From Methanofollis ethanolicus (GTDB lineage: Archaea > Halobacteriota > Methanomicrobia > Methanomicrobiales > Methanofollaceae): 64,000 nt of DNA. The stretch is from assembly GCF_001571385.1 (NCBI RefSeq), contig NZ_BCNW01000001.1, forward strand, positions 186,001-250,000. The letters run 5' to 3'. Of the stretch, positions 516 to 57,479 are shown in pieces. The notes under the pieces were generated by a model. It did no database searches, was not told the DNA's origin, and saw only the letters and a program-made list of their open reading frames with translations. Position numbers and translations under genes: made by a program. Each line of letters starts with the position of its first letter. The first letter of the stretch is position 1.

Positions 516-851
516 GGCTCTGTAGAAACCCTTGCGGGAAAGTACTTCCTGAAGTGATAGGGGAAAATTCCATTCAGAAGTGCCTGCGCCGGGGGGGCTG
601 CCGCTCAAAAAACTACGTTTTTCTCATACTCACTTCGTTCGCACCCTGCCATTACGATAGGGGCCGGGATGGCCTCCTCCTCCAAAACTCCGACCCTTTC
701 TTCCCGGGACCAATCCTCGCGCGGGGAACGAGCGTCAGCGAGTTCGAGAAGACGGAGTCTTCGAGGTCCGGGGGCAAAAGTCCCCCGGCGAACGGGAAGG
801 CAGAGGATCAGCACGCATTATCAACCGATATAGGAGGATTTCTACAGAGCC
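516..851 (-). mobile_element. MITE-like element, complete copy (B)
   Basis: This 336-bp non-coding element is bounded by perfect 13-bp terminal inverted repeats, GGCTCTGTAGAAA at 516-528 and TTTCTACAGAGCC at 839-851. It is flanked by a perfect 7-bp direct repeat AAAAATC (509-515 and 852-858), which looks like a target-site duplication. Its reverse complement matches the element at 10577-10847 along almost its whole length, apart from two insertions of the ~40-nt palindromic module (605-643 and 726-766). It contains no transposase, so it would have to be moved in trans by an element outside this window. It lies just past the stop codon of the downstream-facing phosphodiesterase gene. Confidence 0.85.
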
Positions 852-9945: not shown

Positions 9946-10455
9946 TCACGCTGCCGCGGGGAGCGACACCTCAAGCACCTCTGCAAGTTCCCGGAGGGCC
10001 GCCTTCTCCTTCTCGCTGACGCGGGCGCCGCCAATGCCGAGGAAACCGCCTTCCCTGCTCGCCTCGGCGACGGCATGACCGATGCCAAGGAGCCACTTCC
10101 TGAACCCCGCTGCCTCGCCGGGCGTCGTCCTTGCCGCCAGGATGGGGCCGATGCCGCGGAGGCCCTCCAGGATCCGCGCCCTGATCTCTTCGGGCCTCCC
10201 CTCGGTAAAGTCCTCGCTGCCGGGAAGGTGCTCTTTCCTCTCCGACATCTCCCTGAGGTCGGCGACCAGCGACCCGACCAGTTCCTTCGCTTCCGGCGGG
10301 ACGTCGAGTCTGTCGAAGGCCCGGGACAGGGCCTTCAACTCCCGGAGAATGCCGGTGAAGTCGGGATCGGCGAGCATCACGGAGAAACCCGCGGCGACAG
10401 GCGCCTGCAGGAGGCGGCCCCATTCTGCAGTGGTGAAGTCCGCTTTTGTCGTCAT
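9946..10455 (-). CDS. Conserved protein of unknown function
   Basis: This is a 169-residue soluble, mostly helical protein with no membrane segment or catalytic motif that I recognise. The C-terminal part (KWLLGIGHAVAEAS then GGFLGIGGARVSEKE) looks like a conserved block that I have seen in proteins annotated only as hypothetical. The start ATG at 10455 is preceded by GGATGGACCGACC. It stands alone between a tRNA and a MITE copy. Function unknown. Confidence 0.65.
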   Translation of the reverse strand: MTTKADFTTAEWGRLLQAPVAAGFSVMLADPDFTGILRELKALSRAFDRLDVPPEAKELVGSLVADLREMSERKEHLPGSEDFTEGRPEEIRARILEGLRGIGPILAARTTPGEAAGFRKWLLGIGHAVAEASREGGFLGIGGARVSEKEKAALRELAEVLEVSLPAAA

Positions 10456-10576
10456 GGTCGGTCCATCCTCCCCGGGACAGGCATACCGGCCCGGGGTCTG
10501 TCATGCCCTCCGGGGGCCCGATCCCATATGAGAGTATCGGCGGGTCCGGGAAAAAAGTGGAATAGAATATTTTCGG

Positions 10577-10847
10577 GGCTTTGTAGAAATCCTCCTCCAT
10601 CGGTTGATAGTGCGTGCCGGTCCTCTGCCTTCCCGTTCGCCGGGGGATTTTTGCCCCCGGACCCCCGCGCGAGGATTGGTCCCGGGAAGAAAAGGTCGGA
10701 GTCCTGGAGGAGGAGGCCATCCCTGCCCCTATCGTAATGGCAGGGGGTATGGGGGGCGGCAGCCCCCCTGGACCAGGCACTTCTGAACAGGATTTTTTTC
10801 CCCTATCACTTCAGGAAGTACTTTCCCGCAAGGGTTTCTACAGAGCC
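10577..10847 (+). mobile_element. MITE-like element, complete copy (C)
   Basis: This 271-bp non-coding element has terminal inverted repeats GGCTTTGTAGAAA (10577-10589) and TTTCTACAGAGCC (10835-10847), with one mismatch. It is flanked by a perfect 8-bp direct repeat ATTTTCGG (10569-10576 and 10848-10855). It matches copy B (516-851) in inverted orientation but lacks that copy's two palindromic module insertions, so it may be closer to the basic form. Inside are the paired CCGGGGG...CCCCCGG stem and a GGGGGGCGGCAGCCCCCC stem. It sits 25 bases past the stop of the decayed EamA gene. Confidence 0.85.
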
Positions 10848-10880
10848 ATTTTCGGCAGGATATGAAGACATCCCCGACAA

Positions 10881-11789
10881 TTACGACTTCATCTCCGGGT
10901 CGGCCCAGACGTTCGCGAGCACCACCCCGGCAATGATCAGGAGACTCCCGACCGCATGGTTGGAGAGGAACGCCTCATGGAGTACCAGCACGCCTGCAAG
11001 GATAGAGACGACGACAGAGAGGTTCTGGATGATCCCCACCTTCGCCGCCTCCAGGTCCTTCGGGCTGTACATTGCGAGAAAAGACGTCCCGACAGAGGTA
11101 AAGAGGCCGAGATAGAGGAGGTCCATCATGAAACCCGGGTCCCCGAGCAACAGGGCCGCTCCGCCTGCGTCCAGACCCTCGCACACGATGGCCGCCGCCA
11201 CAAACGCGACACACCCGCAGAGCACCATCCTGAAGGTGAGGCTGACAGGGTCGAGAGTATACGGGTGAGCCTCCGCCCGAGGACGATGTACAGGGATGTC
11301 GTAAGAGCAGAGAGCAGGGTCAGGACCATCCCCGTCCAGCTGGTGCCGCCTCCGTTGTTCCCGCCCATAGAGAAGAGGCACACGATCCCGGCGATCGAGA
11401 TGAAGAAGGCGAGGAACTGTTTCGCATTCACGTGTTCCCCCAGCAGCAGGAGACCGAGGACGTCCACGAAGACGGGTACGAAGGCGGAGATGATCCCGGC
11501 CTCTGACGACGATATGGAGAGCAGCCCGAAAGCCTGAAGGGAGAAAAAGAGGACAGGCTGGATGAGAGAGAGAGGACCAGGAGGTCCCGGATCGCATCTG
11601 CCCTGATGCGAACCGCGATGACGCCTGCCGCAAGCAGCACCAGCATAAAAGCAAAAGAAAGGGCAAAGCGGAAGGCAAGAGTCGTGAAGGGCTCTGCAGC
11701 CCCAGAGATTCCTTGACGAAGAGGAAACTCAGGCCGATAAAAAAGGTGTTGACAACAGCGGCGATATACGCGTATGTCCGTTGCTGCAT
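10881..11789 (-). pseudogene. EamA/DMT-family transporter, inactivated by three frameshifts
   Basis: Drug/metabolite transporter sequence is spread over three frames of the minus strand. It starts in one frame (MQQRTYAYIAAVVNTFFIGL), shifts near 11700-11706 where a G run appears one base short, and shifts again at a (GA)n run at 11564-11574, where two extra bases or one missing base break the frame before QPVLFFSLQAFGLL. It then shifts back near 11262, after GRRLTR, into SLTFRMVLCGC and the last helices. Repaired, it would be about 300 residues with ten helices, the normal EamA length. Neighbouring genes are intact, so this looks like real decay rather than poor sequence, but re-sequencing would settle it. 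Confidence 0.8.
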
Positions 11790-11887
11790 GAAATACCCGT
11801 ACAATTTCGAGAACTGATCTGATACGTGTTGCGGGGACAGGGAGGGATTTCCTGACCCGTACACGCACAAAGAAAGGGAAAAACAGC

Positions 11888-11911
11888 AGGAGTTATATAA
11901 CAGGGACTCCT
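11888..11911. promoter_or_regulatory. TATA box framed by an inverted repeat
   Basis: AGGAGT (11888-11893) and ACTCCT (11906-11911) are inverted copies on either side of a self-complementary TATA tract (GTTATATAAC). The tract ends about 21 bases before the GTG start at 11923, implying a leaderless or nearly leaderless message. The symmetric tract could also have served the divergent pseudogene. Confidence 0.4.
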
Positions 11912-11922
11912 CATTCATTTCT

Positions 11923-25139: not shown

Positions 25140-25392
25140 GAATAAGAGTCTTTTCCGGGGGGCATGCCCCCGGTCCCCGTGTCAAGATAGGCAGGGATAC
25201 GGCAATTTCTCTCCCCATGATTTCCTGTTCTCTCTTACCCGGCCTTATCCGAATTGGCGAGACGACCGGAGGGAGTCGAGAAAGCCTTCGGCTTTCGGTA
25301 ACGAACTGCGAGTTCAGACAGAAGAGTACGGCTTCCGCTCGAACGGAGAGCGAGCGATTCGCCGGGGCGAAAAAGAGAGACTCGTGCTGTGC
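25140..25392 (+). repeat. Degenerate repeat (D) with palindromic modules
   Basis: This gene-free stretch starts with a CCGGGGGGCATGCCCCCGG hairpin like the core of the MITE family and then carries two or three diverged copies of the ~40-nt palindromic module (about 25259-25297, 25300-25338 and 25340-25380). It runs into the 3' end of the winged-helix gene on the opposite strand. No terminal inverted repeats were found. Confidence 0.5.
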
Positions 25393-35274: not shown

Positions 35275-35450
35275 TGCCGGGGGGCTACCAGCGAAGACTT
35301 CGTCTTCTCGACTCCCTCCGGTCGTTCCTCCGGACCCCCGATCCAGGATAGGACGGGGGAAGTGTGAACAGGATATCCGAAGGGGGAGATAACCATCCCC
35401 TGCTTATCCTAATGTGGGGGGACCGGGGGGCGGCAGCCCCCCGGAGAAGA
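35275..35450 (+). repeat. Degenerate copy (E) of the dispersed hairpin repeat
   Basis: This contains the CCGGGGGG...CCGGACCCCCGATCC entry with a palindromic mini-module (35291-35328) set into the stem loop, then 'gataggacgggggaag', 'ataaccatcccc' and the closing GGGGGGCGGCAGCCCCCCGG hairpin (about 35423-35443). It matches the core of the MITE-like copies but no terminal inverted repeats were found. Confidence 0.55.
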
Positions 35451-36084: not shown

Positions 36085-36225
36085 GAAAGGGCGGATGAGA
36101 TCACGGGGAGAGAGATTGCCATCCCCATCCTATCCTGAGCGGGGAACGAGCGTCAGCGAGTTCGAGAAAACCGTAGGTTTTCGAGTGATCGGGGGCGTAG
36201 TCCCCCGGCGCGGGACAGTGATCAG
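36085..36225 (+). repeat. Degenerate copy (G) of the dispersed hairpin repeat
   Basis: The order of blocks (gggaaagggcggatgagatc, 'attgccatcccc', 'tatcctgagcggggaacgagcg', palindromic module at 36143-36185, then 'gggggcgtagtcccccggcgcg') follows the second half of copy A near 225-390. The first hairpin of the family is absent. Confidence 0.55.
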
Positions 36226-57112: not shown

Positions 57113-57169
57113 GGTTGACTTTGAGCATATCCCAAAACTCTCGTTCATTCCCCTTTCCCCGCATGCTGA

Positions 57170-57420
57170 ACTCGGGAGAGAATATCATGATCGGGTCGAT
57201 ATCTTCCTGAATTCCCTGAAGCATAGTGCGAAACCACCGCCTTCCCCCAGATCTCTACCGGGGGACTGACGCCCCCGGACCCCCGAAACAGGATAGGGTC
57301 GGGGAAGAGAGACCAGAGATCCTGATGAAGGAAATTGCCATCCACCCCCTATCGCAATGATGGGGGACCGGGAGGTGAAACCCCCCGGACAAGACGCCAA
57401 AACAGGATTTTTCAGAACCA
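57170..57420 (+). repeat. Degenerate copy (I) of the dispersed hairpin repeat
   Basis: The CCGGGGGACTGACGCCCCCGG hairpin (about 57259-57280), 'gatagggtcggggaag', 'gaaattgccatcc', 'cccctatcgcaatgatggggg' and a final 'ggatttttcagaacc' (about 57402-57416, compare the right terminal repeat) follow the family order. The gap 57113-57492 contains no gene. Confidence 0.6.
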
Positions 57421-57479
57421 CATACCGATCATTCCATCGACAGGACAGAGGGTAGGATCAGTTTTGGGATGACCTCTTT

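Follow-up and report, generated by a model that had tools for sequence, protein, structure and literature searches.

The 271-bp element at positions 10577–10847 (plus strand) of the window, the 64,000-nucleotide stretch of the Methanofollis ethanolicus genome that we analysed, is very probably a non-autonomous MITE whose movement was driven in trans by an IS5-family transposase. Judging from sequence comparison, we put this reading at roughly nine chances in ten. The comparisons demonstrate an insertion into an empty site, sister copies with their own duplications, and ends matching those of an IS5-family element.

The initial annotation had described a complete MITE at this place with an 8-bp target duplication, and both its coordinates and its terminal repeats were reproduced. 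The ends read GGCTTTGTAGAAA / TTTCTACAGAGCC, and directly outside each of them lies an exact ATTTTCGG (10569–10576 on the left and 10848–10855 on the right). The inverted arms, 10577–10593 and 10831–10847, are 17 nt long and 88% complementary. When one mismatch or fewer is allowed, the end pattern GGCTYTGTAGAAA occurs 4 times in the window, as compared to 0.09 expected from shuffles, and 137 times in the genome, as compared to 7 for the reversed control. The element has no transposase of its own detectable as a PF01609 or NF033579 match within it, and the Rfam search yielded nothing relevant in it (the top match, below threshold, scored 17 bits, the gathering score being 233). It sits upstream of the gene for a 169-residue protein with no Pfam match (9946–10455, minus strand), about 120 bp from the start of that gene. 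On its other side, a transporter-like frame (10881 on, minus strand), which we take to encode a DMT-type transporter, ends 25 bp away. The matches of five relatives to this frame (10881–11918) switch frame along its length, and it may be frameshifted here.

The insertion is directly visible in the two closest relatives compared, G009 and G010, whose marker ATPase is 93–94% identical at the protein level and which have the same neighbours around the site. In both of them, the orthologous place holds one ATTTTCGG and no element, and the flanks are continuous on both sides, while two copies of the octamer are present here. Therefore, the stretch 10577–10847 is an insertion. The same holds for the first copy of the MITE in the window (516–851, minus strand): its site in this genome reads GAAAAATC, the element, and AAAAATCCCG, and in both G009 and G010 the site is also empty, with a sequence like GAAAAATCCCG. 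Accordingly, both elements are younger than the divergence from G009 and G010, unless they entered a close ancestor that is not among the genomes sampled.

How widely has the element spread in this genome? A BLAST search with the 10577–10847 copy against its own 2.71-Mb genome returned 57 pieces, 17 of which, including the query copy itself, cover at least 237 bases and are at least 92% identical. The suggestion that this copy helps to define the basic unit thus holds: it is the uninterrupted 271-bp form, subfamily A, and the 16 others in that set resemble it to 92% or more. Among 42 end pairs with flanking 8-mers at most two apart, which come from the loci fetched, were selected by the duplication, and include the 954-bp IS described below, the 8-mers are identical in 29, off by one in 10, and off by two in 3. 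Without selection by duplication, 49 strong end pairs (100–600 bp) were found, with 24 exact and 32 within one, in a set that includes wrong pairings across neighbouring elements; its non-duplicated pairs also include real-looking elements, such as the first copy. In the controls, flanks shifted outward gave 0/210 exact and 3/210 within two, and comparisons between different elements gave 4/1722 exact and 128/1722 within two, the last figure being raised by the AT-rich targets. The duplications have a G+C content of 27%, against 61% locally, and follow the rough pattern G-A-W5-C. The element tally is a minimum, with 100 of the 137 end motifs among the matches listed. The copy number, the duplications elsewhere, the empty sites in two relatives and the related insertion sequence all bear out the description as a MITE with an 8-bp duplication; against the main reading stand the first-copy duplication, which agrees in 7 of 8 positions, and some end pairs that have no duplication.

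Two further loci of this genome, G000, deserve mention. At G000:C1:601317-601935, a MITE of the window family contains an inserted MITE of a second family, and its outer ends keep the exact 8-bp duplication GATTTTCT. The contig C2 (4729 bases) carries a composite MITE with flanks as at C1:2557108, and may be a redundant copy or a leftover of the assembly. Related elements of a shorter subfamily occur in records named Methanofollis sp. STE_20. A description of these repeats was not found in the literature that we searched, a statement that extends to that literature only.

Which transposase moved the element? PF01609 (DDE_Tnp_1) has one match in the genome and NF033579 has three pieces at one place; these are the sole matches, at C1:1589070-1589814. 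The DDE_Tnp_1 match lies inside a 954-bp element, C1:1588915-1589868, with the ends GGCTCTGTAGAAACCC..GAATTCTACAGAGCC and the duplication CGAAAATC on both sides. Its transposase is broken: the coding sequence is spread over three frames, and the copy scores 108.7 bits with NF033579, under the cut-off. The right terminal inverted repeat of the MITE (10830–10847, minus strand), read inward over 18 nt, is identical to the left end of this IS (GGCTCTGTAGAAACCCTT), and the left terminal inverted repeat (10577–10594, plus strand) agrees with the right end of the IS (GGCTYTGTAGAAWTCCTC) save at two of the first 18 positions. The correspondence is thereby side-specific, right matching left and left matching right. 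Moreover, both MITE ends also match the two ends of a 1008-bp element in G006, another species of the same genus. This element is 84% identical to the IS at the DNA level, is flanked by the duplication GAACAATC, and has an open stretch of 301 residues that scores 236.9 bits with NF033579, above the cut-off, between the ends GGCTCTGTAGAA..TTCTACAGGGCC. The genome G004 contains three 1007-bp relatives, whose ends deviate a little and whose 8-bp duplications are exact, and the transposase relatives match NCBIfam IS5_2. The same ends together with IS5-type genes or gene pieces were found in Methanoregula, Methanohalophilus and a Wukongarchaeum MAG. Within the IS5 family, the ISH1-like subgroup, to which the element may belong, is marked by 8-bp duplications and group-specific ends; the duplications here are 8 bp long. 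The MITE has in common with IS5-family elements (NF033579, DDE_Tnp_1) its terminal repeats, the length of its duplication and the kind of transposase that such ends enclose in this genus, in Methanoregula and in the Wukongarchaeum MAG, but it has no transposase gene, and the IS copy of this genome is broken. The exact sharing between MITE and IS covers only about 18 terminal bases, with about 57 at 75% on one side, so that the MITE could have been moved by a different IS that shares these ends.

IS6/IS26-type elements have GGC(T/A)CTGT ends and 8-bp duplications, and the end letters and duplication length of the MITE are similar, so that it might be taken for a relic of such an element. This parentage was rejected, and we regard it as scarcely credible. 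PF13610 has 0 matches in the genome (E ≤ 0.001), while the control was positive in 5 of 14 genomes, and elements with the same ends, both from this genus and from other archaea, contain DDE_Tnp_1/IS5_2 transposases, so that it is IS5-type genes that lie between such ends.

The interior of the MITE is a GC-rich core (10640–10795, plus strand) with two hairpin modules (CCGGGGG..CCCCCGGACCCC and GGGGGGC..GCCCCCC), homologues of which are found throughout the genus, in and outside the MITE. We counted 133 instances of the core motif GCCCCCGGACCCC in this genome, and 11 of the 12 genomes of the genus contain it; many occurrences lie outside GGCTYTGTAGAA elements. The search with the 10577–10847 copy gave no match in 19 genomes from other genera within the order. 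The core hairpins are strong (z −3.3 to −4.0). Both this strength and the occurrence of the core motif outside the MITE ends would suit a selected hairpin repeat, terminator- or REP-like, with ends conserved by chance, rather than a transposon. We consider this highly improbable for the whole unit, since the duplications, the empty sites and the IS-matching ends require that the entire unit transposed. In addition, compensatory changes are all but absent from the core stems, which are nearly invariant among 24 non-redundant sequences (many from loci picked by the exact core motif, which fixes one arm) and so give no evidence of selection. The empty sites refute such a repeat as the sole explanation, and it may hold for the core module alone.

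The core is also shared by a MITE family with different ends. Positions ~10–221 of the MITE profile match this second family, which has the ends GAGCATATCCCAAAACT..AGTTTTGGGATGACCTC and 3-bp duplications, such as ACG, GGA, CCG, ATG and GTA; of this family, 16 copies were inspected, some of them with worn ends. One second-family copy lies in the window at ~57123–57476, with the ends GAGCATATCCC..GGGATGACCTC and a core homologous to that of the 10577–10847 MITE.

The first copy differs from the basic unit by two inserts. The 336-bp element at 516–851 is inverted relative to the 10577–10847 copy, and its duplication is imperfect, matching at 7 of 8 positions (GAAAAATC / AAAAATC). Both the opposite orientation and the lack of the two palindromic insertions in the 10577–10847 copy had been pointed out before; the two extra stretches are indeed present, within the pair, in 516–851 only. 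They match one and the same model of a 43-nt double hairpin, hereafter called “element P”, at 603–645 (plus strand, 51.7 bits) and 725–766 (minus strand, 58.1 bits). The palindromic insertions are therefore copies of a dispersed, covarying double hairpin, which in the window is also found at 289–328, 108–199, 25259–25300, 35289–35328 and 36143–36186. Just outside the first copy, at 40–490, a worn copy of another repeat, unit X, carries P insertions and ends in the degenerate terminal repeat GATTCTACAAAACC.

The P sites were first collected through a motif downstream of them, which places no constraint on the positions under test. Of the 48 sites thus obtained, 41 are complementary at the variable positions x and x′ (18 C-G, 18 G-C and 5 A-T). 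In an alignment of 35 sequences, from which rows without the GAA..TTC (or AAAA..TT) frame had been removed, 91.7% of the cells pair in the double-hairpin structure, as compared to 78.6% in shuffles, and 0 of 500 shuffles were as high; the rows are related, so this shuffle figure is not a probability. Two-sided changes were found in 69 cells, against 25.6 in shuffles, while the number of pairs with a two-sided change and the number of further pair types did not exceed the shuffles (133/500 and 387/500 as high, respectively). In slid structures, 33–52% of the cells pair. The frame requirement favours the outer three pairs of the first hairpin and not the inner ones.

The P model has matches in 15 of 41 genomes, with at least 136 here and at least 67–91 in three genomes of another family; up to 150 candidates were scored per genome, so that these counts are lower bounds. 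Like the REP/REPIN sequences with RAYT (Y1) transposases (PMC3116915), P consists of short dispersed palindromes at over 100 per genome, but it occurs here without a Y1 match in the genome and without association across genomes. P is present with no Y1 (RAYT-type) match in G000, G003, G006, G009, G011, G020, G024, G029, G034 and G039; Y1 is present with no P among the matches listed in G002 and G004; and both are present in G001, G005, G008, G010 and G014. In particular, Y1 transposase gave 0 matches in G000, G009, G011, G024, G034 and G039, each of which has at least 67–136 P matches. RAYT was rejected as the mover of P, since Y1 genes do not track P across genomes.

Unit X, about 275 bp long with the ends ACCATGAAAATGATC and GCCCGATT, is found in 9 of the 50 collected elements, some of which are nested in others. 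The junction reads GGRTTT/ACCATGAAAATGATC and the end GATT/CTACAGAGCC or a close variant, so that X sits at one fixed position of the terminal inverted repeat. An IS110-type origin of X is conceivable. Its partners differ and both orientations occur, while the X copies are 88–98% identical, and the X junctions recur in other genomes of the genus. Of the nine composites, six have identical outer duplications, two have duplications with one mismatch, and one has a duplication with two; the fusions therefore move as units. Composite MITEs with 8-bp duplications (494–686 bp) include G000:C1:2696664-2697201, 1267166-1267709, 2557108-2557657, 1865232-1865765, 1808034-1808583 and 2161484-2161977, among others.

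Do the two inverted copies in the window act on the segment between them? This segment contains two MinD/ferredoxin-type ATPases, two FeMo-cofactor (NifX-like) proteins, tRNA-Asn and tRNA-Met, a content for which the label “metal-cofactor cluster and tRNA genes” is fair. The initial annotation proposed that recombination between the copies could invert it. The copies are indeed inverted, with a longest exact shared stretch of 52 bp, so the event is possible in principle, but there is no sign of it, and the comparison of gene order revealed no inversion. In G009 and G010, the segment has the same order and orientation and the outer flanks on both sides; in G006, the order is unchanged over the stretch that begins at the transporter gene and reaches the left-flank genes; and in G003 and G005, it agrees for those genes that allowed a test. 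From G002, G004 and G007, we recovered the Mrp/NifX part alone, which is uninformative on order, and G001, G008 and G011 were left out of this comparison. Since G009 and G010 have neither copy, their order represents the ancestral state and is no test of whether the inversion can occur. Moreover, matching duplications are retained around each copy separately, which argues against a crossover since insertion, because a single crossover would swap the flanks. A search for swapped duplications as recombination scars among the duplication-less elements gave no clear reciprocal pair, and AT-rich 8-mers match by chance. The inversion idea is without support so far, and with each copy keeping its duplication and the gene order equal to that of the relatives, we consider it very unlikely that the two copies serve as an inversion switch that flips the 10-kb segment and its cofactor genes.

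We propose the following course of events for the trans-mobilised MITE. An IS5-family transposase would make a staggered cut at an 8-bp, AT-rich target; the MITE, mobilised in trans, would insert there, and the target would thereby be duplicated. The IS of this genome, or an intact relative, would have supplied the transposase. The MITE family would now be immobile here, because the only transposase copy found is broken. The element is thus an IS5-derived MITE that is now probably orphaned.

The finding is real and its kind is already known, while the hairpin modules look unusual. Prokaryotic MITEs, those of archaea included (review PMC10969869), are likewise short, multicopy, non-autonomous and IS-related, with terminal repeats and duplications; unlike those, the family here is joined by a second module at one constant point of the terminal inverted repeat, and its core is common to a MITE family with different ends. 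We tentatively suggest, at somewhat less than even odds, that the MITE is the visible exterior of a system of modular, nested repeats in this order of methanogens. Two or more MITE families that differ in their ends and duplication lengths would have packaged the core; X would join varied partners at a fixed point of the terminal inverted repeat, the fusions jumping whole; and P, whose stems vary while the pairing is kept, would invade the core hairpins. If this is true, P would represent a novel type of structured, dispersed element, with more than 100 matches in each of several genomes and no RAYT-type transposase to account for it.

The MITE provides a well-documented case of expansion in one species as its transposase decayed, with sister species offering clean empty sites. 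The composites indicate how new MITEs may be built from old parts, and element P is a structured, covarying repeat that is now searchable by a model. These modular composites and element P are the parts that deserve specialist attention.
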